Part shown: positions 14,943 through 36,869 of the stretch, in pieces
Numbering within the stretch: the first letter of the stretch is position 1
Layout of the letters: the number at the start of each line of letters is the position of its first letter
Assembly: GCF_002270415.1 (NCBI RefSeq)
Contig: NZ_NNRI01000022.1
Span: forward strand, 1,178,001-1,242,000
DNA length: 64,000 bases
Reading direction: 5' to 3'
DNA from: Mesorhizobium sophorae
Lineage (GTDB): Bacteria > Pseudomonadota > Alphaproteobacteria > Rhizobiales > Rhizobiaceae
Translations under genes and position numbers: made by a program
The notes under the pieces: generated by a model
What the model saw: only the letters and a program-made list of their open reading frames with translations
Databases searched by the model: none
Told to the model about the DNA's origin: nothing

Positions 14943-15114
14943 ATTCCCTGGAGCTAAACATTGTCGGTCACGATACAGGTCGCTGGCGACTGGCCTGTCC
15001 CTTTCTTGCTTCCGACAGTGCTGCAATCGACGCGGAAGTGGCGGCTTCGATGCGGTGGTCGCAGTTTCCCAGTAAAAGGTTTTGATCCATTGCTTGTCCG
15101 ATTCCAGAGTTGGT

Positions 15115-15139
15115 CGAACCAAATCTCGCCCACCGCGTT
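15115..15139 (+). promoter_or_regulatory. EcfG-like promoter for ligD
   Basis: CGAAC, 16 bases, CGTT: the -10 element is exact and one base of the -35 element differs. It ends 36 bases before the ligD start. Confidence 0.45.
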
Positions 15140-15174
15140 GAAACTCGCGTTGCGTCATCAGCCGGGGCATTTCC

Positions 15175-17823
15175 ATGACAAAGGGCGAGCTTTCCACCTA
15201 CAGGGCCAAGCGGGATTTCACCAAGACGAAAGAGCCCAGCGGCGCAAGCACGATCGGGAAATCTAACCGGCTTCGATTTGTCATTCAGAAACACGCGGCC
15301 ACGCGGCTGCACTACGATCTTCGCCTTGAGCTTGATGGTGTGTTCAAGTCGTGGGCCGTTACCAAGGGACCGTCGCTGGATCCTCACGACAAACGTCTCG
15401 CAGTCGAGGTGGAGGACCATCCGCTAGACTATGGCGACTTCGAAGGCACCATCCCCAAGGGCCAATATGGCGGTGGCACCGTGCAGCTGTGGGATCGGGG
15501 ATACTGGGAGCCGGAAGGCTCTATGTCAGCTGAACAGGCTTTGGAAAAAGGCGATCTTAAGTTCACGCTCGACGGTAAGCGCCTGCACGGAAGTTTTGTC
15601 CTTGTGCGCATGAAGCATGATCGCAATGGAGGCAAACGCACCAACTGGCTGCTGATCAAGCATCGCGACAAATACGCGACCGATGGCAATGGCGACGCGG
15701 TGCTGGCGCAGGACCGATCCGTCGCCTCTGGACGAAGCATGGATAAGATTGCCGCGGGGAAGGGTGCCGGACCGAAGCCATTCATGATGCAAGGCTCAGG
15801 GGTGGCCGATGCGGATGCCGTGTGGAACGGCAATCGCGGCCATGCTGCTGACGAGCGCGCCGCCAAGCCGTCAAAGCCATCTACGCGCCCCGAACGAACT
15901 TCTCGTGCTTCGGCGGCGAAAATGCCCGACTTCATCGCACCGCAGCTGTGCCAGACGCTTTCCCGGCCGCCAGCGGGAGCGAATTGGGTCCATGAAATCA
16001 AGTTCGATGGCTACCGCGTCCAGCTGCGGGTCGAGGATAACGCCACCACGTTGAAGACCAGAAAAGGCCTGGATTGGACGGAGAAGTTTGGCGCCATCGC
16101 AAAGGAGGCGGCCAGCCTTCCCGATGGCATCATCGATGGCGAGATTGTCGCGCTCGGCGAGAATGGCGCGCCCGATTTTGCCGCCATGCAAGCTGCATTG
16201 TCCGAGCGCCGCACAAACGATCTCATCTTCTTTGCCTTTGATCTGTTATTCGCCAACGGCGTTGATCTGCGAAACCTGCCTCTCTTGGGACGCAAGGAGC
16301 GACTGAGTGCGATGCTCGGTGAGGTCGATCGCGGCGAGGAAAATCTTATCCGCTATGTCGAGCATTTCACCAATGGCGGCGATGCGGTGCTGCGCTCCGC
16401 CTGTCGTCTGTCGCTTGAAGGCATTGTCTCCAAAAAGGCTCATGCAACCTATGTCTCAGGCAGGACCGACACCTGGGCAAAATCGAAATGCCGCGCCGGG
16501 CATGAGGTCGTCATCGGCGGCTGGGCCACCACTAATGGCAAATTCCGATCGTTGCTGGTCGGCGTCAATCGGGGCGAGCATTTCGCTTACATCGGCCGTG
16601 TCGGAACCGGATACAGCGAGGCAAAGGTCAAGCAACTGCTGCCAAGGCTGAAGCAGATGCAGGCGGTCAAGTCGCCATTCACTGGCGATGGCACGCCAAA
16701 AAAGGATTCAACCGTCTTTTGGACAAAGCCCGAACTGGTTGCGGAAATCGAATTCGCCGGGTGGACTGGCGGCGGCAATGTCAGGCAGGCCGCCTTCAAA
16801 GGCTTGCGCGAAGACAAGCCCGCGAGAGAGGTTGAGGCCGAGCGACCCGCTGATCCTCAAAAGACGCAGATTGCCGAACCCGCCAAGGCAACTGCCCGGA
16901 GTGGGAAAAGCCCGGTCGTCCTGGGCGTCATCATCTCCAAGCCTGACAAGCCGCTGTGGCCGAATGCCGGCGACGGTGGCCAGCCGGTCACCAAGCTCGA
17001 TCTTGCAGAGTACTTTGAGGCCATTGGCCCCTGGATGATCGAACATCTCAAAGGTCGCCCCTGTTCGCTTGTCCGAGCCCCTGATGGATACGCCGGCGAG
17101 CAGTTCTTCCAGCGCCACGCAATGCCAGGCACGTCGAATCTGCTGGAGTTGGTGACAGTCTTCGGCGACCACAAGCCATATCTTCAGATTGACCGCGTTG
17201 AGGGCCTGGCCGCGATCGCCCAGATCGGTGGCCTGGAGCTGCATCCCTGGAATTGCCAGGCCGATCATCCTGAAATTCCCGGGCGACTTGTCTTCGACCT
17301 CGACCCTGGTCCGGAGGTTGCCTTTGCCGAGGTGGTAGCCGCAGCGAAGGAAATGCGCGATCGTCTTGAAGATCTGGGCTTGGTGAGCTTTTGCAAGACG
17401 ACGGGCGGCAAGGGCCTGCACGTTGTCACCCCATTGGCCACCCAGCGTAACAAAACGACATGGCCAGAGGCCAAGGCCTTCGCGAAGGCGGTGTGCATGC
17501 AAATGGCGGCGGACCGTCCAGACCTCTATCTCGTCAACATGGCCAAGAAGCTGCGGACGTCTCGGATCTTTCTCGACTACCTTCGAAATGATCGTATGGC
17601 GACAGCCGTTTCACCGCTGTCTCCCCGCGCCAGAGAGGGTGCGCCTGTATCGATGCCGCTGACATGGGGGCAGGTGAGGGCGGATCTCGATCCGAAAAAA
17701 TATACCGTCCGCACCGTGCCGGGCCTCCTGAAGAAGACCGTCGCCTGGGCGGACTATAATGACGGCGAACGGTCGATCAGCAGTGCCATCAAACGGATGG
17801 GTTCAGCAAAGCTCGCCGCATGA
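15175..17823 (+). CDS. ligD: DNA ligase D (phosphoesterase-ligase-polymerase)
   Basis: The 882-residue enzyme of bacterial non-homologous end joining. Residues about 30-190 form the 3'-phosphoesterase domain ([19 protein letters not shown] with catalytic His and Asp). Residues about 250-560 form the ATP-dependent ligase, with catalytic Lys276 in EIKFDGYR and downstream FFAFDLLF and [12 protein letters not shown] motifs. Residues about 590-870 form the primase/polymerase domain ([11 protein letters not shown], metal-binding [22 protein letters not shown]). The domain order is that common in Rhizobiales. No Ku gene is in the window, although LigD normally acts with Ku. The stop overlaps the start of the next ligase by 4 bases. 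Confidence 0.95.
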
Positions 17824-18839
17824 CATCGAAAAATGTGAAGCCGCTTTTTCGCCTTCCGTTGGATACTGCGCCGATGGAGGCAAAGGCTGCCGACGCGTTG
17901 CCTGCTAACACCGGCCAATGGCAGTACGAACCCAAATGGGACGGGTTTCGATGTCTGGCCTTCAAAGCTGGCGATGAGGTGGACTTGCGAGCAAAATCAG
18001 GTAAGCCGCTCGGCAGATATTTTCCGGAAGTCGTCTCGATTTTGCGTGAGCTGAAAGCCACGGAATTCGTCGTCGATGGCGAGATCGTTATCGAAGTCGA
18101 TGGCTCGCTTTCTTTTGACGCACTCCAGATGCGGCTGCATCCGGCAGAAAGCAGGATTCGAAAACTGTCGATGGAAACCCCGGCCAGACTGATCTTGTTT
18201 GATATCCTGGCCAATCCCGGTACCAGCTTGATCCATCAGCCTTTGTCCGCACGGCGCGTAGCGCTGGAGGCGTTCTTAAAGTCGGTTGAAAGTACCGGCC
18301 TTGAGTTGTCGAGCTGTACCCAGGATTTGACGACTGCAAAGAAGTGGCTCGGGGACTCGGGTCAGGGGTCAACGGACGGCGTCGTCGCCAAGCTCCTCAA
18401 TGACGAATATCGGCCTGGTGAGCGCACCATGGTCAAAATCAAACGCCTACGCACTGCTGATTGCGTGGTCGGAGGGTTTCGCTACCTGGCGAACTCGCGC
18501 GAGGTCGGCTCCTTATTGCTTGGCCTCTACAATGATCAGCGCAAACTCGACCATGTGGGATTTACATCGACAATCGCGCAGCAAGACCGGACAACGCTAA
18601 CGCGACGACTTGAGGCTTTGCGAGCGCCGCCTGGCTTTACAGGCAAGGCGCCCGGCGGCCCCAGCCGCTGGAGCACGGAAAGAAGCGGGCAGTGGGAGCC
18701 ATTGCGGCCAGAGTTGGTCGCAGAAGTGCGTTTCGATCACGTGACCGGCGATCGCTTCCGGCACGGCACCAAATTCCTTCGATGGCGGCCCGACAAGAAT
18801 CCGGGGCAGTGCACGTTCGAACAGATCTTGCAAAAATGA
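17820..18839 (+). CDS. ATP-dependent DNA ligase (LigC-like)
   Basis: The 339-residue product is a stand-alone ligase of the LigC type: nucleotidyltransferase domain with the adenylated Lys in [13 protein letters not shown], motif [17 protein letters not shown] and [18 protein letters not shown], then an OB-fold part from about residue 220 ending in [16 protein letters not shown]. LigC enzymes are tied to end joining and gap repair alongside LigD. The ATGA overlap with ligD shows translational coupling in one operon. Confidence 0.9.
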
Positions 18840-18892
18840 AGCGCTCGTCTTGCAACGAGCATGAAGTGTCCTCGCATCCGCAGAGCGCAAAA

Positions 18893-19342
18893 TCATTTGT
18901 CCGGTTGCTGCTGCGCGGCTGGAATTTCCGGTTCCAGTGGCGGCGCGTCGATGGGGTGGGGCTCTCGGTCATGTTCGAACTGCTCGGCCCACTGCAGATC
19001 CATCAACCAAGGTTCGCGCCGGCCGATCCAGAGTTCGTAGCCGGGTATGATGTCGCCGGGAGCAAGATCGAGAGCGCCGAGCGATATCTCCGCCTCGTCA
19101 CCCCGTAATGAAGCGACACGCGATCCGCAATCGGGGCAAAAGCTTCTTCCTTCAAACGTCCTGAGTTCGCCGGCTCCCTCATAGGCAGATCGCGGCCAGA
19201 CTCCAAAGAAGTTGAAAGCACTGCCGCTTGCACGTCTGCAATCCTGACAATGGCAAAGGCCAACGCGGAGCGGAGCGCCTTTGACCGAGAAGCGAACTGC
19301 ACCACAGAGGCAACCCCCGTTGCGAACGACATCTTCGCTCAT
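18893..19342 (-). CDS. GFA (CENP-V/Gfa-like) family protein
   Basis: The 149-residue product has the zinc-binding pattern of the family: NGGCLCGAVRFSVKG, LCHCQDCRRASGSAFNFF and SFCPDCGSRVASL. The founding member was described as glutathione-dependent formaldehyde-activating enzyme; the role of most members is unknown. The C-terminus is extended and acidic/proline-rich (PHPIDAPPLEPEIPAAQQQ). The ATG at 19342 lies inside the 3' part of the next upstream minus-strand frame, so the two overlap by more than 150 bases. Confidence 0.8.
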   Translation of the reverse strand: MSEDVVRNGGCLCGAVRFSVKGAPLRVGLCHCQDCRRASGSAFNFFGVWPRSAYEGAGELRTFEGRSFCPDCGSRVASLRGDEAEISLGALDLAPGDIIPGYELWIGRREPWLMDLQWAEQFEHDREPHPIDAPPLEPEIPAAQQQPDK

Positions 19343-19727
19343 GTGCGGCTCGCATCGGAGGATCACGGTTCTCATCGGGGTTAGGCACTGGCAGCTCATC
19401 GGGCAAAAGATCCGGGTCAGGCTCTCGCACGTCAGGTGTCCAGGTTGGCGCATCCATCGGCGGTTGTTCGCTCGGCTCGCGTTTGGGCGGCATGGCTACG
19501 CTCCGGGTTTGCCGGTCGGGCGAGGTCTTACCGGCCACGGGCCGAGCGTCGCTCTGTCTGGCCGGGAAGGGGTCTGCGAGAGGGCTTTTAGGCGGTGCGC
19601 CAGCTGTCTCGGGGCTGGACTGCCCGTGACCCGCGCCTTCGTCGCTTGGGGTTTTTCGCTCGATTTCGGCGCCGGCCGCCTCCGGCTCTTTGACAATTGC
19701 ATCGTTGCGATTCTTGATCTTCGCCAT
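19179..19727 (-). CDS. Hydrophilic proline-rich protein, unknown; 3' end probably damaged
   Basis: The start has a textbook ribosome binding site (AAAGGAGG, 8-base spacer) and an exact EcfG promoter upstream. The first 125 residues are disordered-looking and rich in Pro, Asp and Glu (MAKIKNRNDAIVKEPEAAGA, then PPMDAPTWTPDVREPDPDLL). From about 19342 the frame runs over the GFA gene and becomes Cys/Arg/Leu-rich shadow translation, so the natural stop seems lost by a frameshift or deletion. The family is not recognised. Confidence 0.55.
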   Translation of the reverse strand: MAKIKNRNDAIVKEPEAAGAEIERKTPSDEGAGHGQSSPETAGAPPKSPLADPFPARQSDARPVAGKTSPDRQTRSVAMPPKREPSEQPPMDAPTWTPDVREPDPDLLPDELPVPNPDENRDPPMRAAHERRCRSQRGLPLWCSSLLGQRRSAPRWPLPLSGLQTCKRQCFQLLWSLAAICL

Positions 19728-19750
19728 TCCGGTTGCCTCCTTTGCTGGCC

Positions 19751-19775
19751 AACGACCGGCCGCAAGGAATGTTCC
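19751..19775 (-). promoter_or_regulatory. EcfG-type promoter, minus-strand side of a divergent pair
   Basis: Minus strand: GGAAC, 16 bases, CGTT; exact consensus, 24 bases before the start at 19727. Confidence 0.7.
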
Positions 19776-19784
19776 ATTTCAGGC

Positions 19785-19809
19785 GGAACTGACAGCGAGC
19801 GGGGCTGTT
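19785..19809 (+). promoter_or_regulatory. EcfG-like promoter, plus-strand side of a divergent pair
   Basis: GGAAC, 16 bases, TGTT; one mismatch. It ends 29 bases before the start at 19839. With the minus-strand promoter it makes a back-to-back stress promoter region of 59 bases. Confidence 0.5.
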
Positions 19810-19838
19810 ATCGGTCATCACACGGGAGATCGACAACA

Positions 19839-20069
19839 ATGTCTGGCAATCAAGACCGTCGCGAAACCGGTGCAACAAAATATCCGGCCAAGACCGGTGC
19901 CGACCCGTCCGATGCATTCTCCCAGGACGCGGCTGGCAATAAGAAGCCCAAGACAGGGGTTGGACTAACGCGCCCTGCGGATGAAGTGGATGACCGGACG
20001 CATCAGTCAGACGGTCAGAACCCTCCTGGCCAAGGGTCACCGGGCGGTAGAAAGAGGGATCGGCGATAA
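19839..20069 (+). CDS. Small hydrophilic protein, unknown
   Basis: A 76-residue product without hydrophobic segments (MSGNQDRRETGATKYPAKTG, ending in GSPGGRKRDRR), probably disordered. GGGAG lies about 10 bases before the ATG. It is expressed from its own EcfG-like promoter, opposite to the other disordered protein at 19727. Small disordered proteins of this kind are frequent among stress-induced rhizobial genes; no function is known. Confidence 0.6.
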   Translation: MSGNQDRRETGATKYPAKTGADPSDAFSQDAAGNKKPKTGVGLTRPADEVDDRTHQSDGQNPPGQGSPGGRKRDRR

Positions 20070-20357
20070 ATTGCCCGCACCTTTTCCGCAAGGTCTTCGA
20101 GGCTGAATGGTTTTGGCTACTTGAGCTCTACCGGCCATGAAGACACCGGTCCAAGCGCGCTGTCGCTCCCGGGCTGCGAAAGGCAGAGGGAACTCGGTTT
20201 TGGTTGCATCCCCACGTGGCTACGGCTGTAGGGGCGGGTTTTCTAGGCTCCGTTAGACAGGCTGCAAGTGACGGGCACTCAGCGAGCTTTTTTCCAGTCA
20301 GCACAGCCAACTTTTTCCTTAAACGCACGTTGTTCCTCTGCAACCGAGGAGACATCG
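20070..20357. other. Intergenic stretch before the SDR gene
   Basis: No gene is supported. A GGAAC at 20189 has no matching -10 element at 16 or 17 bases, so I do not call an EcfG promoter here. Confidence 0.35.
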
Positions 20358-21335
20358 ATGCCGAGCGATACGAAAACCGACACCTCGACGACCGTCCGAA
20401 AACAGCGGCGCATACAGCGCAAGGTCGACGCCGACGATCGAATGAAACCAAAATCGACACCCGTCGGCGCGATGCAGGCCGGCGCGCGAAAATACCCGGC
20501 GCCGCCGTTTCCAAAGCAGCATCATCCGAAACCCGGCCATGAAGCAGAGATCAAGCCAGCTCCGCTATACGTTGCACCGTTCTGGCGCGGCTCTGGCAAG
20601 CTCGAGGGCAAGGTGGCGCTGGTCACCGGAGGTGATTCCGGTATTGGGCGTGCGGTCGCCGTCCTGTTCGCACGCGAAGGCGCAGACATTGCGATCGTCT
20701 ATCTGTCGGAGGATGGCGACGCCGAGGTAACGAAGCAGTCGGTGGAAAGCGAAGGCGGCCGCTGCATAACCATCCGAGGAGATGTCGCGGACCGAAACTT
20801 CTGCCGCAAAGCTGTGGCCAACACGGTCAAGCAACTGGGAGGGCTCGACGTGCTCGTAAACAACGCAGCATTCCAGGTGCATTCAACGGATTTTGCCGAC
20901 CTGACTGAGGAGCATTTCGACACCACCTTGAAGACCAACCTCTACGGCTATTTCCATATGGCCCAAGAGGCGGTGGCGTATATGAAGGCCGGCTCGGCGA
21001 TCGTCAACACGGGGTCCATAACCGGAATAGACGGGTCGAAAGAACTGATCGACTACTCGATGACCAAGGGCGGTATTCACGCCTTCACGAGGGCCCTATC
21101 AGGCAACCTTATCGGCAAGGGCATTCGCGTCAATGCAGTCGCTCCGGGGCCGGTCTGGACACCGCTCAACCCGTCTGAAAAGCAGGCCGACGATGTCTCG
21201 AAGTTCGGCGCGAAAACCCCCATGAAGCGCCCAGCACAGCCGGAAGAAATCGCACCAGCCTATGTCTTTCTGGCATCGCCGCAATGTTCGAGCTACATCA
21301 CCGGAGAGATCCTCCCGATCATAGGTGGCTATTGA
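20358..21335 (+). CDS. SDR-family oxidoreductase (YdaD/YhdF-like)
   Basis: The 325-residue product begins with about 70 charged residues, then a PFWRGSGKLEGKVALVTG linker typical of the general-stress SDR group (Bacillus YdaD/YhdF type). The Rossmann motif is TGGDSGIGRAVA, the NNAA motif follows, and the catalytic Tyr and Lys are in YSMTKGG. The C-terminal SYITGEILPIIGGY is family-typical. It is an NAD(P)-dependent oxidoreductase with unknown substrate. The ATG at 20358 follows CGAGGAGACATCG. It stands alone among the stress genes. Confidence 0.85.
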   Translation: MPSDTKTDTSTTVRKQRRIQRKVDADDRMKPKSTPVGAMQAGARKYPAPPFPKQHHPKPGHEAEIKPAPLYVAPFWRGSGKLEGKVALVTGGDSGIGRAVAVLFAREGADIAIVYLSEDGDAEVTKQSVESEGGRCITIRGDVADRNFCRKAVANTVKQLGGLDVLVNNAAFQVHSTDFADLTEEHFDTTLKTNLYGYFHMAQEAVAYMKAGSAIVNTGSITGIDGSKELIDYSMTKGGIHAFTRALSGNLIGKGIRVNAVAPGPVWTPLNPSEKQADDVSKFGAKTPMKRPAQPEEIAPAYVFLASPQCSSYITGEILPIIGGY

Positions 21336-21393
21336 CGAACCGTGCTCGCGTCGCGCTGCGAAAGCACGCGGGGCAATCAGGGACAAAAACCCG

Positions 21394-22246
21394 TCAAGAC
21401 GTTCGCAAGAACGCGCTAATCGCTTCGGCCACAGCTTCAGGAGCCTCTTCGGCCATATGATGCCCACTCTGGATCCCTTTTCCGCTGAGCGTGGTGGTCC
21501 ATGGACGCCAAACATCGAGTACGTTGCCATAGAGCATCTCGAGATCATCCCGGGTCGACCACAGGGCCAGCGTCGGACAGGCAACCCGGCGGCCGGCCTT
21601 TCGGTCTCCGGCATCATGACATCGATCGATTGTCAGCCCTGCCCGGTAGTCTTCAAGCATACCATGGACTACTGCCGGGTCGTGGATCGCTCGCGAATAA
21701 TCGGCATAGGCCTCAGCTCCCATCGCTTCGGCCGAGCCACCATACCAGGCGTCAGGGTCGGCCATGATGGCGCGTTCAGGCTGAGCATAAAAGAACCAGT
21801 GCCACCACAGTTTTGCGAAGCGTGCATTGCAACGCTCGAGGGCTTCCAAAATAGGAACACCGTCCATGACGCGATCAGATGGGAAATTGCCGACGGGTGG
21901 TCCATGGCCGTCCGGAAAGCGGTATAGCTGCCGCGATCATGTCCTGCGATGGCAAACCGGTCAAAGCCGAGGCGATTCATCAGCGCGATGCAGTCCCTTG
22001 CTTTCGCAGCTTTGAGGAGCCGACGTGGTCGGCTGCGTCCTCCGGTATGGAAGACCGGCCGAAGCCTCGCAAGTCAGGACAGACCACCGTGTGGTCAGCG
22101 GCGAGAAGCGGCGCGACCTGGTGCCAGGTGACGTGTGTGCGGGGGTGGCCATGCAGCAGTAGCAACGGCGGCCCGGAGCCGCCGAACCTCACCCGTAGCG
22201 AAGCCTCGGGCAGATCCACCATCTGGAGACTGAACTTTTCGAACAT
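21394..22246 (-). pseudogene. Alpha/beta hydrolase (haloacetate-dehalogenase-like), two frameshifts
   Basis: Three consecutive frames together encode one protein. The first (start ATG 22246 after AAAGGGGCTG) has PPLLLLHGHPRTHVTWHQVA and VVCPDLRGFGRS; the second (from about 21990) has the nucleophile motif FAIAGHDRGSYTAFRTAMDH; the third (from about 21870) has KLWWHWFFYAQPERAIMADP and the His segment SGHHMAEEAPEAVAEAI. The intact family member is about 290 residues, with catalytic Asp in GHDRG. Shifts near 22005 and 21880 disrupt it. Confidence 0.75.
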
Positions 22247-22532
22247 CAGCCCCTTTCGGCGCCGGGAGTGCAACAGATCGCATATCTGACACCAATCCGC
22301 GCGAGCGGTATTGGTTTCGAGCGATCGTGGAATTCGAAATCGCTTCATCTCGATCGAATTACAATCCAGGCATTTTTAGTAGTCACGACAGTTCAATCAA
22401 GAATGGTGCACGGGTCCGACAGACAGTCGTTTTCTAACCCTGCGTAAGCTTGTTATTGTGCAGTGCAGCAACGATTTTGTTGCATGTGCATTGTGCGCGG
22501 TTTTCGTCACCTTGGCGCCTGAGGATCACGAT

Positions 22533-23684
22533 TTGCGAAACCTCTCAGATACAATCACTCGGCTGACCGCTATGCGTGGCCGGCCGGGTTTGTCCGTGCA
22601 CCGCGACGACCGCTTGTCCGACATAGCCGGTTTCGGATCCAATCCCGGTGCCTTGCGTGGGCGCGTCTATGTTCCTGAGAATCTCCCGCGGGGAGCCGCG
22701 TTGGTTGTCGTCCTGCACGGCTGCACGCAGACGGCGGATGCGTACGATCATGGATCTGGATGGTCGAAGCTGGCGACCGACCAGGGTTTTGCGCTGCTAT
22801 TTCCGGAGCAGCAGCGCGGCAACAATCCCAATCTGTGCTTCAACTGGTTCGTGCCCGAAGATGTCACACGCGACCGTGGAGAAGTGCTCTCCATCCGCCA
22901 GATGATCCAAGCCATGGTGACAAAGCATGGTCTCGACCACCGGCGCATTTTTATCACCGGTCTTTCTGCCGGCGGCGCCATGGCGGCGGCGATATTGGCA
23001 ACATATCCGGAAGTGTTCGCCGGCGGCGCAATCATAGCAGGGCTCGCCTACGGCAGCGCGTCGACGATCCCGGAAGCCTTCGATCGCATGCGTGGCCATG
23101 GCGGCCCAACGAAAACTGAGCTCCAGAGACGCTTGGCCGGAGCTTCGCCTCATAAAGGGACTTGGCCGAAGATTTCAATCTGGCAGGGCTCGGCCGACAC
23201 CACAGTGGTCCCGTCGAACGCGGATTCCATTCTCGCTCAATGGCAAGGAGTTCATGGCGTTGGCGCAAGCCCCACCCGAAAAGAAACGGTCGATCGACAG
23301 ATACGTCAGGTGTGGTGCGACGCGGACGGCAATGAGTTGATCGAGAAATACACGATTGCCGGCATGGGCCATGGTACGCCACTGCAGACGCTCGGTGATG
23401 ATGGCTTGGGCGTTGCCGCCCCATTCATGCTGGACGTCGGTATTTCATCAACGCGCCATATTGCGGATTTCTGGGGTCTTACAAGCCGAACTGAAGCCAG
23501 ATCTGGGGAAGCTCCGAAAAGGTCGCCAGGCAAAGCAGTGAGGACTTATGCACCTGTCGAGAATCCGCGAGCAGTACGCGCCGATGCCGCTAAGGCGCCG
23601 CAGCCTGATGCTCCGGGCGGTTCGGCCACAGGCATTACCAAGGTGATTGAGGACGCTCTGCGCGCAGCCGGCTTAATGGGTTAG
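22533..23684 (+). CDS. PHB-depolymerase-family esterase (LpqC-like)
   Basis: The 383-residue product has the esterase PHB family pattern: LVVVLHGCTQTADAYDHGSG, LLFPEQQRGNNPNLCFNWF, the nucleophile Ser in IFITGLSAGGAMAAAILATY, an Asp candidate in WQGSADTTVVPSN and the catalytic His in AGMGHGTPL. After the domain comes a charged Pro/Ala tail and a short C-terminal helix. The start is probably the TTG at 22533, which follows GAGGA by 7 bases and begins LRNLSDTITRLTAMRG as in relatives; the frame extends to a GTG at 22458. The physiological substrate is unknown. Confidence 0.8.
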   Translation: MRNLSDTITRLTAMRGRPGLSVHRDDRLSDIAGFGSNPGALRGRVYVPENLPRGAALVVVLHGCTQTADAYDHGSGWSKLATDQGFALLFPEQQRGNNPNLCFNWFVPEDVTRDRGEVLSIRQMIQAMVTKHGLDHRRIFITGLSAGGAMAAAILATYPEVFAGGAIIAGLAYGSASTIPEAFDRMRGHGGPTKTELQRRLAGASPHKGTWPKISIWQGSADTTVVPSNADSILAQWQGVHGVGASPTRKETVDRQIRQVWCDADGNELIEKYTIAGMGHGTPLQTLGDDGLGVAAPFMLDVGISSTRHIADFWGLTSRTEARSGEAPKRSPGKAVRTYAPVENPRAVRADAAKAPQPDAPGGSATGITKVIEDALRAAGLMG

Positions 23685-24207
23685 CGAAGACGCCAGCCAC
23701 AGAGCGAGACGTTGGACATGAATTACCACCTTCCTTCCGAAGTTCGAAATTTCGGCTGGAAGGTCTCGCGGTCGGGGAGGGCGTGCGCGGTTGCGCTAAA
23801 GGCCGCGTCCATCTCACCACCTGCCAGGCCGATCCAATGCGGGTTCGGCTGAAGCTTGGCGAGACCTGCGAGCGCGCACGACAGCGCGGTTAGCCGCGAT
23901 GTTCCGCTGCATATGTCGAATGCTCCGCTTCCATGACGGCGGGCTTTTTCATTTGGCCGGAACATCGATGCTCACGGGTGGTTGAGCTTCAGCGCGTTCT
24001 TCCGCGGTTCCTGCCGGCGGAGGCCAACTGACCGAAGCATTCGGCGGGTGTCCAGTTCCAGAGGCTCATGCCTACCTCCTTGTGCCAGCCGCATGTCGCG
24101 CATGTCGGACCATCTGGGCGCAGGCCAAGGACGAGTAGAAAACTGCTCGCTCGCATGCTCGCTGCCGGGGGACGGCGGATCGGAATACGATAGCTTAACC
24201 CGGTATC
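23685..24207. other. About 520 bases without a supported gene
   Basis: On the minus strand around 23740-23900 a run reading GLAKLQPNPHWIGLAGGEMD looks somewhat coding, but no start with ribosome binding site is found. No repeats, promoters or RNA-like structures were seen. Confidence 0.35.
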
Positions 24208-24396
24208 TCAGCGGGTTCCGAGCGCCTTCGCTTCGCGTTCCAGTGTCTCGCGGTTGTCGCCGTGCTTTTTGATCAACTCGCGCACATGATCAGTTGAAAG
24301 GCCGAACTTGCTGGCTAAGTAGCCAACCTCATATTCCTCGTCTCCGCTGACGCGAGTACGGTCTTGATAGCCGAGCTTATTCTTGTCGTCAGCCAT
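24208..24396 (-). CDS. DUF3606 small protein
   Basis: The 62-residue product (MADDKNKLGYQDRTRVSGDE, then EVGYLASKFGLSTDHVRELI) is a clear DUF3606 member: an RTRVS.DE.YEV segment followed by a helix that resembles a helix-turn-helix. The start lies 8 bases inside the end of the preceding gene, behind GAGGAAG, so the two are translationally coupled. The function is unknown; relatives are common in rhizobia. Confidence 0.8.
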   Translation of the reverse strand: MADDKNKLGYQDRTRVSGDEEYEVGYLASKFGLSTDHVRELIKKHGDNRETLEREAKALGTR

Positions 24397-24574
24397 TGGA
24401 TTTCTTCCTCGCCGCTGCTGGATTTTGGCCGGTAGCAGCCGTTGTCTTAGCGTCTTTCGAGTGGGCAGCCAACGCTGGGCCTGCCCCAGTCGCCTTGCGC
24501 ATGTCGCCACTGCGCGTTTCGGGCTGCCGTTTCTTCCCTAGAAGGCCTGAAAAATACTTGCTTAAAAACCCCAT
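24389..24574 (-). CDS. Small Ala-rich protein coupled to DUF3606
   Basis: The start ATG has an excellent ribosome binding site (AAAGGAGGATAGG). The 61-residue product starts MGFLSKYFSGLLGKKRQPET, an amphipathic helix, followed by an Ala/Lys-rich tail. Its stop overlaps the DUF3606 start by 8 bases. Upstream on this strand, GGAAC with AATT at 16 bases is only a weak EcfG candidate. Function unknown. Confidence 0.6.
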   Translation of the reverse strand: MGFLSKYFSGLLGKKRQPETRSGDMRKATGAGPALAAHSKDAKTTAATGQNPAAARKKSNG

Positions 24575-24861
24575 CCTATCCTCCTTTTGATCGGGCATTT
24601 CAGCCGAGTCTAATTCAAGAATTTGCGTGGGCGGGATTTGTTCCTGTGGGCAGTGTCACCGTGGTACCTGAGATGACGAAGGCCAATGCATTTCGGTCGA
24701 CGAACGTACCCATAAATTGATTGCCAACGCCAAGTTTGTTGGGATCAAGCGGGAAGAGACGACGAAAAGGCACACCGCTCAGCTGATGCCACCTTCCGGC
24801 ATGCCTCTGTCTCCCTGCTCCAGATGCGATCCTGGAAATCGGTTTGCGATCACCGTTCCAG

Positions 24862-24886
24862 GGAACATCTGGCATCGCCGCAGGTT
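24862..24886 (+). promoter_or_regulatory. EcfG-like promoter for katE
   Basis: GGAAC, 16 bases, GGTT; one mismatch in the -10 element. It ends 43 bases before the katE start. Confidence 0.45.
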
Positions 24887-24929
24887 GCTGAGCAGCTCAT
24901 TCCCAGAGCAAGCCCCAAAGGAGGACCGC

Positions 24930-27038
24930 ATGGCGCGTAAGGCAGCAACCAATCCCAATTCCGCGACGATCCACGACCAAACCCTTGTTCGAGGGGAGGG
25001 CGGAGAGCTGCATCAGATTGCAGCCGGCAAGACAGACATTCTGACCACAGCCCAGGGCGGCCCGGTCGCAGATGATCAGAACACGCTTAAGATCGGGCCA
25101 CGCGGCCCAACCCTGATCGAAGATTTCCACTTCCGCGAAAAGATTTTTCACTTCGACCACGAACGCATTCCCGAGCGCGTCGTCCATGCCCGAGGCTACG
25201 GCGCCCACGGCTTTTTCGAGACATATAAATCGCTCGCCAAGTACACCCGTGCCGACGTTTTTCAGCGCGCTGGTGAGAAGACGCCGGCGTTTGTCCGGTT
25301 CTCGACCGTAGCCGGCAGCAAGGGCTCGTTCGATCTGGCGCGCGACGTGCGCGGGTTCGCTGTCAAGCTTTACACCCAGGAAGGCAACTGGGACATCGTC
25401 GGCAACAACATCCCGGTGTTCTTCATCCAGGATGCGATCAAGTTCCCCGATGTCGTGCACTCGGTCAAACCTGAGCCCGATCGTGATTTCCCTCAAGCCC
25501 AGTCAGCGCATGACACGTTCTGGGATTTCATCAGTCTGACGCCCGAATCCATGCATATGATCATGTGGGTGATGTCGGACCGCGCGATCCCGCGGTCGTT
25601 CCGCTTCATGCAGGGCTTTGGAGTGCACACCTTCCGCCTGCTCAATGCCGCCGACGAGTCCACCTTCGTGAAATTCATCTGGAAGCCGAAACTTGGTATG
25701 CAATCGGTGGTCTGGAACGAGGCCGTCAAAATCAACGGCGCCGATCCTGACTTTCACCGCAGGGATCTGTGGAACGCTGTCCAGTCCGGGGCTTTCCCGG
25801 AGTGGGAACTATGCCTGCAGCTCTTCGACCAAGAGTTCGCAGACAGCTTCGATTTCGATGTCCTCGATCCGACAAAGCTGATCCCGGAAGAGATCCTGCC
25901 GCCGATTCCCGTCGGCCGGCTGGTTCTCGACCGCATGCCGGACAACTTTTTTGCCGAGACCGAGCAGGTTGCGTTCATGACGCAGAACGTGCCGCCCGGC
26001 ATTGACTTCAGCAACGATCCACTGCTGCAGGGCAGGAACTTTTCGTATCTCGACACGCAGCTGAAGCGCCTTGGAAGTCCCAATTTTACCCATCTGCCGA
26101 TCAACGCTCCGAAATGCCCGTTCCACCATTTTCAGCAGGACGGGCATATGGCGATGCGCAATCCCGTCGGACGCGCTAACTATCAGCCCAATTCGTTCGG
26201 CGAGGGGCCACGAGAGTCGCCGGAGCGCGGCTTCCGCTCATTCGCCGATGCCGAGGAAGGTCAGAAGATCAGGCTGCGCCCTGAGAGTTTCTCCGATCAC
26301 TACAGTCAAGCTGGTCAATTTTTCAACAGCCAGACGCCGACCGAGCAACGCCATATCGCCATGGCGCTGACGTTCGAATTGAGCAAGGTTGAAATGCCGG
26401 TCATACGTGAACGCATGGTCGCCCATCTCCTCAACATCGACGAGGGGTTGGCCGCCACGGTCGCCGACAAACTCGGTATCACCGACTTGCCGAACGCCGC
26501 GGACGCAGCCGTGCCGCCGCGTACGGATCTGGAGCCATCGCCGGCGTTGAGCATCATCGAAAACGGACCCGACAGTTTCCAAGGCCGCAAGGTCGGCGTT
26601 CTGGTGGGCAATGGCGTCGATGCCGCGCTGCTCAAAGCCTTGCAAGCCGCTATCGAAGGCGAAGGGGCGACGATGGAGGTCATTGCTTTGAAAGTCGGTG
26701 GCGTGCAGGCCGACGATGGCACCAAGATCATTGCCAAGCATATGATTGACGGGGGGCCGTCGGTGCTGTTCGACGCGGTGGCCCTTCTGCTTACGGAAGA
26801 AGCCGCGGAACTTCTGACTGGAGAGGCAGCAGCCCGGGATTTTGTGGCAGACGCTTTTGCGCACTGCAAATTCATCGGTTTTACGCCCGGGGCGGTGCCT
26901 CTTCTTGCGAAGGCGGGCGTCGACCCGGCAGCCGACGAGGGCCTTATTCCTCTGCCCGATGGGGACGCTGCCGGAACGTATATCGAGGCGTGCCGCAAAT
27001 TGCGACTGTGGGCGCGGGAGGCGAGCGTCAAGCTATAG
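24930..27038 (+). CDS. katE: Large-subunit monofunctional catalase (HPII type)
   Basis: The 702-residue product is a clade-2 heme catalase converting hydrogen peroxide to water and oxygen. The active site is visible: distal His in [17 protein letters not shown], Asn in [15 protein letters not shown] and the proximal Tyr in [14 protein letters not shown]. Residues about 540-700 are the flavodoxin/DJ-1-like C-terminal domain ([20 protein letters not shown]) that marks the large subunit class. The ATG at 24930 follows AAAGGAGGACCGC. Catalases of this class usually belong to the stationary-phase/general stress regulon, which fits the promoter. Confidence 0.95.
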
Positions 27039-27365
27039 GTGAGCTTTATCCGGCAGGCCATCGCCTGCCGAATAAGTCCTTTCGAGATGAAAGGGAAACA
27101 GTAGTGACTGAGGAAGAAACCGGACGGCCGGTCATAGCCCCGCAAACCGTGCGGAGTCACAGAGCAGCAAATCCGTGAGATCGTCTCATTGGTGGGAACG
27201 GACCGGGCGTCGATCCTGCGCGAGGCCAGGCTTCTTCAAAAAGGCCGGGGTTGAGAACACGCGCGGCGCCGATTTCTTCCACTACACGTGGATTCCCGAC
27301 GTGCCGGAGACGATACTCGTTCGCTGCGTGCTATTGGGATTACGACGGCCAAAGCTGACTGTCGT
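27039..27365. other. Intergenic stretch after katE, nothing recognised
   Basis: No frame with a start signal and protein-like composition is present. No repeat was seen; a terminator for katE could not be identified. Confidence 0.35.
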
Positions 27366-29958: not shown

Positions 29959-30486
29959 TCACGCTGCTTGCAGTTCGGCCGCCCGGTCATTGACGAGGGC
30001 TTTGCCCAGCGACGACAGCGCCCTGTCGGTCGCTTTTTCCTCCTCGAGGGTCGCGTTGAGAAGTTCAACGATATCATCCTTGCCAAGCGAGGTGGCCCAC
30101 GCAATCAGAGTGCCATATCGTGCAATTTCGTAGTGCTCGACAGCTTGCGCAGCGCCTACGAGACCGGCGTCCAGTGAAGTCGATCCCATATACTCCTCGA
30201 GAATTTCCGATCCTTCCTCGAGGATGCCGTCGATGGCGGGGCAGGTTTTGCCGCGCGCCGCTGCACCGAGGATGTCAAAGACCTCCTCAAGCCGCTCGAC
30301 CTGGCCTTCGGTTTCGAGACGGTGCTTTTCGAAGGCTGCGGTGACCTGCTCGTCATCTGCGCCCTTGGCCATCTTGGGCAAGGCCTTCAGAATTTTCTTT
30401 TCGGCATAGTAGATATCCTTGAGACCATCGAGTAGCAGATCCTCAAGGCCCTTGGTTTTGGCGGTTGCCTTTTTGGTGGTTGCCAT
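29959..30486 (-). CDS. DUF892 ferritin-like protein (YciE/YciF family)
   Basis: The 175-residue, all-helical product starts with a Lys/Ala/Thr tail, then follows the YciF pattern: LEDLLLDGLKDIYYAEKKIL, an E-x6-Y metal-ligand helix, LEEVFDILGAAARGKTCPAI and VEHYEIARYGTLIAWATSLG with the carboxylate and His ligands of a di-iron four-helix bundle. Members are induced by osmotic and general stress. An EcfG-like promoter lies upstream. It is a single-gene unit. Confidence 0.9.
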   Translation of the reverse strand: MATTKKATAKTKGLEDLLLDGLKDIYYAEKKILKALPKMAKGADDEQVTAAFEKHRLETEGQVERLEEVFDILGAAARGKTCPAIDGILEEGSEILEEYMGSTSLDAGLVGAAQAVEHYEIARYGTLIAWATSLGKDDIVELLNATLEEEKATDRALSSLGKALVNDRAAELQAA

Positions 30487-33467: not shown

Positions 33468-33545
33468 TACTGAGGCGGTTCGTTGCTCCCCAGGTTGGCG
33501 GTATCTGCTTCCCGGGTGGCGTTGTCAGGGAAGGGAGCGCAGGGA

Positions 33546-34493
33546 ATGGAGTTGCTGCAGAGCGACCTGAAGCTCCGTCAACTGAAGGTCTTCCGAGAAG
33601 TGTTGCGGGCCGGTTCGACAAGGCGAGCAGCGGTTGCGCTCGGGATAAGCCAGCCGGCCGTCAGTCAACATGTGAAGCAACTCGAGACCACGCTCGGCAT
33701 CACACTCTTCAAGAGATCAGCCAACCGCATCGTCCCCTTGCAGGAAGCCTGGGAACTCCTGCGAAACGTAGAACTCGCCCTGACGTCCCTGGATCGGCTG
33801 GAAGCGTCAATCTTCGCGATGAAGAACGACGAAAAGCAGCGGATTGCGATTGCCGCGCCTTCTGTTTTCGGTTTCGTGACCTTGCCCAAGGTCGTGGCGA
33901 TCATCCACTCAAAGACCGCCTCGAATGTCCGGTCACTTTCGGGAAGCTACGAGCAGATCGGCGAGCACATCCTGGCAGGGCGTGCCGAAATCGGAATCTC
34001 GAGGCTGCCCCTGGATCCAAGTCTGTTTGAGTGGGCGCCGCTTGGGTCGGCACGAAACGTATGCATCTTCCATCCCGACCATCGGTTCTCAAAACAGACC
34101 TGTATCGAGGCTCAAGACCTGGCAGGCGAAACGATCGTCGATATCGATCCCCAGTTCGCCGCCCACCAAATGAACTTCAATGCCTTGCGCTTCGCCGGCG
34201 TTGAGCCAGACATACTGGTGGAATTCGACTGCAACGGTCACGAAGCCGGATACGTTTCGGCTGGCCTGGGCATTTCGATAACCAACGAGATCATCGCGCG
34301 TGAGTACGCTGCGTTTCACTTGGGAATAAGGCCAGTGGAGCCGTCCGCGCTCTATCACTACGTTGCGATTTGGCAGAAGGGCCGGACCTTTTCCAGCGCA
34401 TTGAATGTCTCGCTCGAGGCGATCATCGCTGCGTTTTCCACGGAGCCGCCTGCGGTTTCCTTAGGAAGCGCCAATTTATTGGCGGTCGGCTAG
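33546..34493 (+). CDS. LysR-family transcriptional regulator
   Basis: The 315-residue product has the N-terminal winged helix (LKLRQLKVFREVLRAGSTRR, AAVALGISQPAVSQHVKQLE, LFKRSANRIVPLQEAW) and a LysR substrate-binding domain from about residue 90. The ATG follows CGCAGGGA. It is divergent from the damaged amino-acid ABC operon, which it probably controls together with a small-molecule inducer. The gene appears intact although its presumed target is broken. Confidence 0.85.
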   Translation: MELLQSDLKLRQLKVFREVLRAGSTRRAAVALGISQPAVSQHVKQLETTLGITLFKRSANRIVPLQEAWELLRNVELALTSLDRLEASIFAMKNDEKQRIAIAAPSVFGFVTLPKVVAIIHSKTASNVRSLSGSYEQIGEHILAGRAEIGISRLPLDPSLFEWAPLGSARNVCIFHPDHRFSKQTCIEAQDLAGETIVDIDPQFAAHQMNFNALRFAGVEPDILVEFDCNGHEAGYVSAGLGISITNEIIAREYAAFHLGIRPVEPSALYHYVAIWQKGRTFSSALNVSLEAIIAAFSTEPPAVSLGSANLLAVG

Positions 34494-34650
34494 GCTGCCC
34501 TCGCAACTCGGATCGTGTGCAGGGTTTCCGGCTGAGATGCGTATATCAACGCAACATCTTCCAATCCTTGCGACCCGTGACAACATCGCTCAATCCATCC
34601 TGGATTCGTCGTTGTCCTCCCAGCAACGGCGGATGCCTGGCAAAGTGGTA

Positions 34651-35745
34651 TCAGCCGATTGCTTGCCGCAACTCCGTATGTGGCGGTGTCTGTTGAAGCC
34701 TCGCCGCGATCACATGAAGTTGCTCCGGCCTCAAGTGGGTATAGCGGCGGAGCATCTTCCAATCCTTGTGCCCGGTGACCATGGCGACCTGCTCGATGGT
34801 GAAGCCAGCTTCAAACAGGCGGCTTGTGCCTTCGTGACGCAGGTCGTGGAAGTGCAGGTCCTCGACCTTAAGTTTATGACAGGCACGTCGGAAGGCGGTT
34901 CCGGCCGACTTCCCATTGTAGGGGAAGATGCGTCCCTTTCCCTCAGTGGAGAAACGCTGCTCTTCGAGGATCGCGCGGGCGTCGTAACCGCTCACATCGA
35001 GGAGCGGGATACGCATGTGATTGCCCTTTTTGTGGCGGGGGTCCTTGCGATCTCGTATCAGCAGGGTGTTGTTGCGGTCGTTCAGGTCCTCCCAAGTGGC
35101 GTTGCAGATTTCCCCGAGCCGCATGGCGGTGGCGATCGCAAAGCGGATGATCTTGTCGACGGGGATAATCTGGAAGTTGTTTTCTCTGAAGTACCGGATC
35201 AGGGCCTCTATCTCGCCAGGTGTCGGCCGCCGATCGCGTTCGTTGCCCTTGCCAACAAGACCCAAGCGGGCGAGGGCGACACGACCAAGTTCCACCGGCT
35301 CCGCTGAATAAGGCAGTCCATGCACAGCCGCGCCGTGCACCAGCAATGTCCGGATGTATCCGATGTCTATTCCAACGGTGACAGGTCCGGCGCCTTCCTC
35401 GGCTCGTTCCTTGCCGAACTTTATGACCTGTTCGCGACTGAGATCCGCGATGTTGAGCCTTCCGAGCCTGGCTCGTAGCAGGTCCAGGCTGAATGCCTTC
35501 GAACGCCCGATCAACTTGCCAACTTCCGTCATATCGGCGATATGCAGGTCGATCAGGTCGGAGACCGTTTTGATCCCGTCCTTGTGCTTGGGAGCAGGCT
35601 TCTGACCCAGGTCGATTTCTCGCTCAATTCGGCGCGCCCACATCTCGGCGTCCTTGCGGAGCGAGAAGCTGGTGCTGAGGTAGTGGCCCTTGCAGCGAAC
35701 CTGCACACGCCACTTGCCGGAAGCCAACTTGTTGATGGTTGCCAT
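34651..35745 (-). CDS. Tyrosine recombinase (integrase) next to dusA
   Basis: The 364-residue product has an N-terminal DNA-binding/core-binding part (MATINKLASGKWRVQVRCKG, a WxVQVR start typical of phage-type integrases) and a C-terminal catalytic domain with the Arg in IATAMRLGEICN, the His-x-x-Arg box in LHFHDLRHEGTSRLFE, the second His in VTGHKDWKMLRRYTHL and the nucleophile Tyr in RRYTHL. The start is at 35745; a GTG lies further upstream in frame. It faces away from dusA and starts about 130 bases from the dusA start, the arrangement of dusA-associated integrases. Confidence 0.9.
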   Translation of the reverse strand: MATINKLASGKWRVQVRCKGHYLSTSFSLRKDAEMWARRIEREIDLGQKPAPKHKDGIKTVSDLIDLHIADMTEVGKLIGRSKAFSLDLLRARLGRLNIADLSREQVIKFGKERAEEGAGPVTVGIDIGYIRTLLVHGAAVHGLPYSAEPVELGRVALARLGLVGKGNERDRRPTPGEIEALIRYFRENNFQIIPVDKIIRFAIATAMRLGEICNATWEDLNDRNNTLLIRDRKDPRHKKGNHMRIPLLDVSGYDARAILEEQRFSTEGKGRIFPYNGKSAGTAFRRACHKLKVEDLHFHDLRHEGTSRLFEAGFTIEQVAMVTGHKDWKMLRRYTHLRPEQLHVIAARLQQTPPHTELRQAIG

Positions 35746-35873
35746 GGGTGGTCTCTTTTTCGTGCACGCTGTGTGCACAGGGAGGGGTACAAAATGCGAA
35801 AACTGACGGATATCGTGTCGTACAAACGGCGAACGTGTGCACGTTTTAAGGCCCTGAAAATACGAGAAAAAGC

Positions 35874-36869
35874 GTGATAAATCAAGCCCATAGGATTTCC
35901 GTTGCGCCTATGATGGATTGGACGGATCGGCATTGCCGGTTCTTCCATCGCCAGCTGACCTGCCGTGCGCTGCTTTACACCGAGATGGTGGTGGCCGACG
36001 CGGTTATCCATGGCGCGCGCGAGCGGCTGCTTGGCTTCGATGCGGCGGAGCATCCCGTCGCCTTGCAGGTCGGTGGCTCAGATCCCGGAAAACTCGCCGA
36101 GGCGGCGCGCATCGGCGAAGCCTTTGGCTATGATGAGATCAACCTCAATGTCGGCTGCCCGTCCGACCGCGTCCAGTCGGGCGCTTTCGGCGCCTGCCTG
36201 ATGAAAGTGCCTGACCTCGTCGCCGACTGCGTCGCGGCGATGAAAGCGGCGGTGACGGTTCCCGTCACCGTCAAATGCCGCATCGGCGTCGACGAGCAGG
36301 ATCCCGAGCCGGCGCTCGATACGCTGGCGGACGGTGTTTTCGAAGCCGGCGCCGACGCGCTGTGGGTGCATGCGCGCAAGGCGTGGCTGGAAGGGCTGAG
36401 CCCCAAGGAAAACCGCGACATCCCGCCGCTCGACTACAGCCGCGTCTATCGGCTTAAGGCCAGAAAACGAAACGAATGCATTGGCATCAACGGCGGCATT
36501 CAGTCGATCGAGGAGGCGCGGGCGCATCTCGACCATGTCGACGGCGCCATGCTTGGCCGCGCCGCCTACCACACGCCCGGCATCCTGGCCGGCGTCGACG
36601 CCGCCTTCTACGGCGTCAAGTCCGACACGTTCGATTTCGCCGCGCTGATCGATGCCATGGCAGAGTACGCGGCCCACCATATCGAACAGGGCGGGCGGCT
36701 TGGCCATGTCACCCGCCATATGGTCGGACTGTTCCATGGCTTGCCCGGCGCGCGCCGCTACCGCCAGATCCTGTCCACCGATGCGACCCGGCCCGGCGCC
36801 GGACCGGACGTGCTCAGGACGGCCTTCGCAGCCGTCGAGTTCGGTGGAGCGGCGGCCGAAGCGGCCTGA
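35874..36869 (+). CDS. dusA: tRNA-dihydrouridine synthase A
   Basis: The 331-residue flavoenzyme reduces uridine in the D-loop of tRNA. Family marks are the opening ISVAPMMDWTDRHCRFFHR, LQVGGSDPGKLAEAARI, the active-site Cys in INLNVGCPSDRVQSGAFGA, VTVKCRIGVDEQDPE and NGGIQSIEEARAHLDHVDGA. The start appears to be a GTG at 35874; the leading residues (MINQAHR) differ from usual DusA starts and may be supplied by the integrated element, since the recombination site lies in the 5' end of dusA. No good ribosome binding site is seen. Confidence 0.9.
   Translation: MINQAHRISVAPMMDWTDRHCRFFHRQLTCRALLYTEMVVADAVIHGARERLLGFDAAEHPVALQVGGSDPGKLAEAARIGEAFGYDEINLNVGCPSDRVQSGAFGACLMKVPDLVADCVAAMKAAVTVPVTVKCRIGVDEQDPEPALDTLADGVFEAGADALWVHARKAWLEGLSPKENRDIPPLDYSRVYRLKARKRNECIGINGGIQSIEEARAHLDHVDGAMLGRAAYHTPGILAGVDAAFYGVKSDTFDFAALIDAMAEYAAHHIEQGGRLGHVTRHMVGLFHGLPGARRYRQILSTDATRPGAGPDVLRTAFAAVEFGGAAAEAA

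Follow-up and report, generated by a model that had tools for sequence, protein, structure and literature searches.

A dusA-associated integrase and the very probable attR end of an integrative genomic island in Mesorhizobium sophorae

The window analyzed here is a stretch of 64,000 nt from Mesorhizobium sophorae, corresponding to positions 1178001–1242000 of contig C15 from an assembly (G000) of 8.05 Mb in 24 contigs. It contains a gene for a tyrosine integrase that is divergent from dusA and separates a long block of accessory DNA, to its left, from the chromosomal sequence that starts within dusA. The relevant features, in window coordinates and with the evidence for each, are the following:

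1–35906, no strand: right arm of the probable island within the window (composition; no block-sized match beside dusA in the relatives examined)
8162–9760, minus strand: ISL3-type transposase (Pfam DDE_Tnp_ISL3, 6e-21)
15175–18839, plus strand: LigD-type ligase and a second ATP-dependent DNA ligase (Pfam and NCBIfam searches)
24717–27038, plus strand: large catalase, HPII-like (Pfam Catalase, 587 bits)
33483–34493, plus strand: LysR-type regulator adjoining the integrase, largely common to the relative genome G030 (Pfam; alignment with G030 from window position 33577)
34534–34650, minus strand: broken C-terminal relic of another putative dusA-associated integrase (DAI), with an internal stop (tblastn, residues 312–351 of the integrase from locus L063)
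34651–35778, minus strand: dusA-associated tyrosine integrase (longest ORF, with GTG start; conserved ATG start at 35745)
35746–35906, plus strand: putative element-borne dusA leader, with the GTG start codon (35874) and the first 11 codons (identity step; leader profile)
35907–35918, plus strand: attR core, CCTATGATGGAT, common to the candidate attL on contig C18 (search of the own genome; identity step)
35874–36869, plus strand: dusA, apparently chimeric, with a 5′ end from the element and a chromosomal body (NCBIfam PRK11815; identity step)

The integrase ORF matched Pfam Phage_integrase (2.2e-23) and PHROG integrase (4e-53), and contains R220, K245, H311, R314, H337 and Y346 (the R-K-H-R-H-Y residues), which include the RHRH/Y residues of tyrosine recombinases (R220, H311, R314, H337, and Y346) and are invariant across nine aligned homologues. 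The conserved inner ATG at 35745, which would give a product of 364 aa, is a likelier start than the GTG of the longest ORF. The gap to dusA is 128 bp counted from this ATG and 95 bp counted from the GTG, in agreement with a preliminary description of this DNA, which had reported a complete tyrosine recombinase starting some 130 bases from a divergent dusA. The latter gene, taken from its GTG start, was assigned to DusA (NCBIfam PRK11815) with 508.7 bits. A search of solved-structure sequences with the integrase gave no match at E ≤ 0.001, and the own genome held a single other integrase match, which is distant (34%, E = 4.9e-6). The relic at 34534–34650, located right behind the intact gene and also present in G030, matched the L063 integrase with 44% (E = 7e-4, tblastn) and looks like what is left of an integrase that formerly occupied this end.

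An alignment of nine homologues, used to scan species genomes, retrieved 320 relatives of this integrase, the best 80 of which were fetched. dusA is divergent from the integrase in 75 of these 80, with 87–151 bp between its start and that of the integrase match, and no dusA was found within the fetched stretch of the other five (L146, L149, L189, L190, and L196). The association with dusA thus extends over more than one genus. Among these best 80 of 320, the three closest relatives in the named collection are from Mesorhizobium. The DAI family and the dusA-specific genomic islands were described by Farrugia et al. (2015; PMC4482086), and the accessible part of that work lists phage mEp460 as a DAI carrier; the integrase of this phage matched that of the window with 38.5% over 88%, which relates the latter to the named DAIs. 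From its sequence and from its recurrent position at the 5′ end of dusA, the window integrase is classed as an intact member of the DAI family, a known group of tyrosine recombinases, the association with dusA having been anticipated in the preliminary description.

We compared the dusA edge with those from G030 (integrase 99% identical), G056 (94–95%), and G037, which contains an integrase remnant (94%). The 150 bp to the left of the core (35758–35907) showed an identity of 1.00 with G030, 0.98 with G056 and 0.99 with G037, and the 150 bp to the right (35908–36057) showed 0.90, 0.92, and 0.86, respectively; farther left, the identity of the shared part was mostly 0.93–1.00 in 150-bp windows, with a single value of 0.89 in G030. 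The step at 35907/35908 falls at CCTATGATGGAT (35907–35918) and, because it coincides with the att core, dusA is taken to owe its GTG and first 11 codons to element DNA. Additionally, the leader at 35746–35906 was recognized by a profile made from 72 DAI leaders, with its own type left out (E = 1.3e-15). The leader therefore tracks the type of integrase and not the host, being 98–100% identical where the dusA sequence right of the core is 86–92% identical, indicating that the start of dusA was supplied by the element, as previously surmised. A simple scan of positions 35640–35960 found no sigma-70-type promoter, with 0.3 expected. By analogy with a Vibrio dusA element, for which a new dusA promoter was demonstrated with a lacZ fusion (PMC8409611), the leader may nevertheless drive dusA.

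The motif TGTGCAC occurs in 40 of the 72 DAI leaders (L142–L218), with two or more copies in 12 of them, the mean after 50 simple shuffles of one strand being 0.42 of 72 leaders. It is likewise present in the window leader (35772–35842) and in the dusA stub from contig C18 described below; these copies are possible arm sites for the recombinase.

A search of the own genome with window positions 35790–36000 yielded 20 matches at E ≤ 10. Besides dusA, only one of them covers the whole core (C18:20911–20972, minus strand, 62 bp, 73%, E = 0.0175); it contains the 12-bp core and then departs from the dusA sequence. By direct reading, 17 of 21 bases around the core are identical between both sites, as two imperfect direct repeats of about 21 bp that lie on different contigs. 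The E-value of this match is weak alone, and it is its location that is telling. A common block precedes dusA in genomes G028, G057, G035, and G012, which have no integrase there, and its homologue in the own genome is found at C18:24185–26667. The matches to C18 are at 173 bp from dusA in G028, 317 bp in G057, 459 bp in G035 and 668 bp in G012, and the att copy from C18 lies 2.7 kb from the DNA that sits 173 bp from dusA in G028. The leader from G057 is of a weak DAI type (E = 7e-7), so this site may be an old scar and not a virgin site. Likewise, around 100 bp (C18:21017–20917) match the dusA start region of 10 out of 40 relatives, with 76–82% identity, and this stub joined to the window dusA produces 332 open codons, one more than the present dusA (331). 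The candidate attL thus sits on C18 between island-like DNA and the native dusA-upstream block, and dusA shows a new 5′ end at one junction and its old 5′ end at the other. Together, the identity step at the att core and the second att copy close to the native block sustain the proposal of an island edge at dusA. This second copy had been expected leftwards of dusA; none was found in the window, allowing up to 3 mismatches, nor by pattern in the left 400 kb of the same contig, but it was present on the other contig. A looser pattern gave one further 3-mismatch hit in the window, which was rejected as being at chance level. Insertion targeted to a tRNA gene was also discarded, the window being devoid of tRNAs. 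A tRNA-Ala (cgc) is located at C18:23546–23622, minus strand, between the native block and attL, and ARAGORN identified no tRNA in the dusA loci, of ~13–14 kb, from 18 relatives.

The right arm continues for ~7 kb past the window, to about C15:1,170.9 kb, and both arms sum ~64 kb on different contigs, with the middle unassembled. Taking C15:778–1158 kb as the chromosomal background, the tetranucleotide distance to the chromosome was 0.201 for the C15 arm (1171–1213.8 kb) and 0.224 for the C18 arm (1–20.9 kb); for chromosome windows of the sizes of the arms, which overlap and were drawn from the background itself, the maximum distances were 0.098 (34 windows) and 0.135 (36 windows). The distance between the two arms was 0.093, and a chromosome-like composition was found for C18:26–69 kb (0.074) and for the 28 kb to the right of dusA (0.065). 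By composition, then, both arms, which are the assembled part of the DNA between the repeats, appear foreign. A sliding composition score trained on both arms was island-like for C18:21–24 kb, which was not in the training set, and this would fit a remnant of an older element; the C15 arm windows at 1173.0, 1174.5, and 1186.5 kb scored as chromosome-like. In 2-kb windows, GC content is 0.54–0.625 left of 35 kb and 0.59–0.66 right of 36 kb, and a crude estimate of ORF cover is 0.63 on the left and 0.90 on the right. The DNA situated 28–36 kb past dusA matched 6/6 relatives, at about 25–40 kb from their own dusA, which, with the ORF cover, agrees with the orderly chromosome formerly described to the right of this gene.

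The left side had also been described as bearing insertion sequences. This holds, thinly within the window, where the Pfam-scanned ORFs include a single transposase, of the ISL3 type; beyond the window there are one more on C15 and three on C18. The catalase scored 917.8 bits with NCBIfam HPII, below the cut-off of 1102. Other window ORFs matched, in the Pfam and NCBIfam searches, an HlyD fragment, PRC-barrel, 2OG-Fe(II) oxygenase, the BrkB family, DUF72, LolA, and YkuD, as well as GFA, SDR, a PHB-depolymerase-type esterase, a PAS/HWE kinase, DUF892, an Nramp fragment, and a transporter permease; several of the scanned ORFs had no family match. The C18 arm contains DUF892, a DDE_5 transposase, two IS110 transposases, YidB, a terminase-like ORF, a cyclase/TPR protein, SMP-30, and an acyl-CoA dehydrogenase. 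A DUF892 gene is present in both arms (window 29959–30486 and C18:957–1502). Since the island carries LigD-kind ligases and a catalase, acquiring or losing it may alter survival under stress. No transfer genes (relaxase, type IV secretion) were detected among the Pfam-scanned ORFs of both arms, the middle of the island being missing. PrtN is reported from 60 of 94 dusA islands (PMC4482086); our search with PF11112 had no match in the own genome nor in any of 14 control genomes, and is uninformative.

We sought window positions 15000–27100 in 119 genomes of the genus, including the own genome, scoring two candidate places per genome; 87 of the 119 matched at E ≤ 1e-200, mostly by single genes. 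The preliminary description implied that relatives lacking the integrase should not carry the block next to dusA. By eye, this stood for the block as such among the 118 relatives, many of them drafts, but not for gene-sized pieces, since two loci have one within 6 kb of dusA (L049, matching window 21434–22248, 72%; L062, matching C15:1176284–1177049, 86%). Matches to the island arm in the 12–13 kb upstream of dusA were found, among 40 relatives, in these same L049 and L062, both with DAI remnants. Within the compared stretches, the matches over the 86 kb upstream of dusA in G030 were limited to the final ~2.4 kb and a single 585-bp piece that corresponds to the C18 arm, and G030 and G056 have only the dusA-side 1.4–2.4 kb in common with the window. 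In G056 (contig C181, locus L042), a 630-bp stretch at ~12 kb from dusA, separate from the integrase module, matches window 33957–34540, which covers part of the LysR gene and the bases right after it; in that genome, other DNA has apparently come in between this stretch and the integrase module.

We consider it highly probable that the window holds the attR end of an integrative genomic island, whose DAI recombined attP with an attB in dusA. The integrase would have recombined the attP of the element with attB, the conserved stretch that encodes MMDWTDRH in dusA, cutting the gene near its start; the old 5′ stub would have been displaced to the opposite end of the island, as attL on C18, and the leader, start codon and first 11 codons from the element would have been fused in frame to the remaining dusA. 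Excision would rejoin the stub and dusA, restoring the open frame of 332 codons. We infer that the integrase is active and that the C15 and C18 arms are the ends of one element. Against this reading speak the weak E-value of the C18 match, the location of the arms on different contigs, the negative promoter scan, the chromosome-like windows of the C15 arm and the lack of transfer genes among the scanned ORFs. In addition, the C15 arm is joined to chromosomal DNA that in G031 lies about 1.1 Mb from dusA, and G030, in spite of an integrase that is 99% identical, has little island DNA in common beyond the dusA end. The last two observations, together with the limited match of G056, the duplication on C8 of the block where C15 meets that distant chromosome, and the integrase decay seen at this site in G037 and 13 other relatives, could also be explained if the integrase and leader were short, decayed remains of a dusA island, with an unrelated 1–34 kb block of accessory DNA that had arrived separately by plasmid integration, IS-mediated shuffling or chromosomal rearrangement. 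We hold this to be improbable, as the integrase is full length with all its catalytic residues, the two arms are alike in composition, and C18 contains a matching attL with the displaced stub; moreover, cargo differs as a rule between islands with related integrases, according to the portion of PMC4482086 available. It could also be argued that an ordinary integrase gene lies by chance next to an untouched dusA with a native GTG start, which at 331 codons appears complete alone. This is hardly credible, given that the same arrangement recurs in 75 of the best 80 relatives, that the leader goes with the integrase type instead of the host, and that a displaced second dusA start exists.

The join of the C15 arm to the chromosome, at about 1,170.9 kb, coincides with a duplicated block of trehalose genes, named from reading their translations (C15:1166745–1170934 and C8:1–4206; 4.2 kb, 96.6% identical). 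The C15 copy joins the island, whereas the C8 copy joins the chromosome, as in G031, where the chromosome that is joined on C15 runs on into DNA that here lies on C8 and C5. This could be a real rearrangement between the trehalose blocks, leaving a split island that cannot excise: the contig was assembled so, without any N, and the identity over 4.2 kb is sufficient for recombination. We find this reading rather unlikely, because a crossover between copies in direct orientation would release a circle with ~1 Mb of chromosome, the order in G031 is C15, C8, C5, and the exact stretches shared by the copies, of up to 181 bp, could mislead a short-read assembly. A misjoin or misassembly at this point is the probable explanation. 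An inversion as the cause of the split was rejected because the orientations do not fit, and divergence did not distinguish the native from the island copy, since both lie at about the same distance from G031 and G065. The end of C18 (C18:1) showed only short repeats and no overlap with C15. A 75–78% relative of C15:1164.9–1170.9 kb occurs 71–178 kb upstream of dusA in G009, G035, G038, and G078, and in G031 and G065 a relative of this block adjoins the chromosome that is seen on C15.

The site appears to have been used more than once. The DAI leader profile found the C18 stub at E = 4.5e-11 and nothing else on C18 at E ≤ 10; the displaced stub being a DAI-type leader, dusA had probably received a leader from an element before this island came, and at least two leaders are readable in this strain, the present one and the older one displaced to C18. 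We also examined 40 relatives, comprising 20 with a close dusA and 20 mostly on large contigs, which are not a random draw. Near dusA, nine have a full-length DAI-like integrase (one of them, from L058, at only 33%), 14 have a remnant, some very short, and 17 have none. A DAI-type leader was present at E ≤ 1e-10 in 23 of the 40, 15 of which lack a full-length integrase. The training set of the profile may include some of the full-DAI loci among these relatives; all the training loci carry a near-full-length integrase match and, consequently, include neither the stub nor the orphan leaders. In G037 (C1:915940–916930, L080), dusA is in two overlapping pieces with two stops and adjoins a remnant of the same integrase type as that of the window; it was possibly lost after decay of the island. 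We lean, with some reserve, towards the view that the 5′ end of dusA in Mesorhizobium is a replaceable cassette owned by elements, in which successive islands install a leader and a start and the leader outlasts the decay of the island. If true, a housekeeping gene for tRNA modification would rely permanently on regulatory sequences that mobile elements had left behind. Among the titles retrieved in our literature searches none dealt with orphan dusA leaders, which does not prove that such a report is absent.

These results fix one edge of a large rhizobial accessory region to a 12-bp core and name the integrase that probably moved it; additionally, they link two contigs as the likely ends of one island, and the displaced and orphan leaders provide a record, open to testing, of successive insertions into a single housekeeping gene. 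The acquisition of a dusA 5′ end from an element was already known (PMC4482086), and the window island is a further example. As far as the available text of PMC4482086 describes them, dusA islands resemble that of the window in having an integrase that diverges from the start of dusA, att repeats that are imperfect, a dusA 5′ end supplied by the element, variable cargo and accreted insertion sequences; unlike them, the displaced stub here is a DAI-type leader from another element. Tandem elements at dusA are mentioned in PMC8409611, and IMEVchUSA3 and other Vibrio dusA elements also provide, in the sections of that work at hand, a new N-terminus for DusA. IMEVchUSA3 is mobilizable by IncC plasmids, whereas the ORFs scanned here are without transfer genes. 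In Mesorhizobium, ICEs without symbiosis genes that adjoin dusA have been reported (PMC8627217); compared with the ICEs and IMEs of this genus, as presented in the accessible part of that source, the scanned ORFs of the window island contain no relaxase or type IV secretion gene, and it shares with the reported ICEs its position at dusA.
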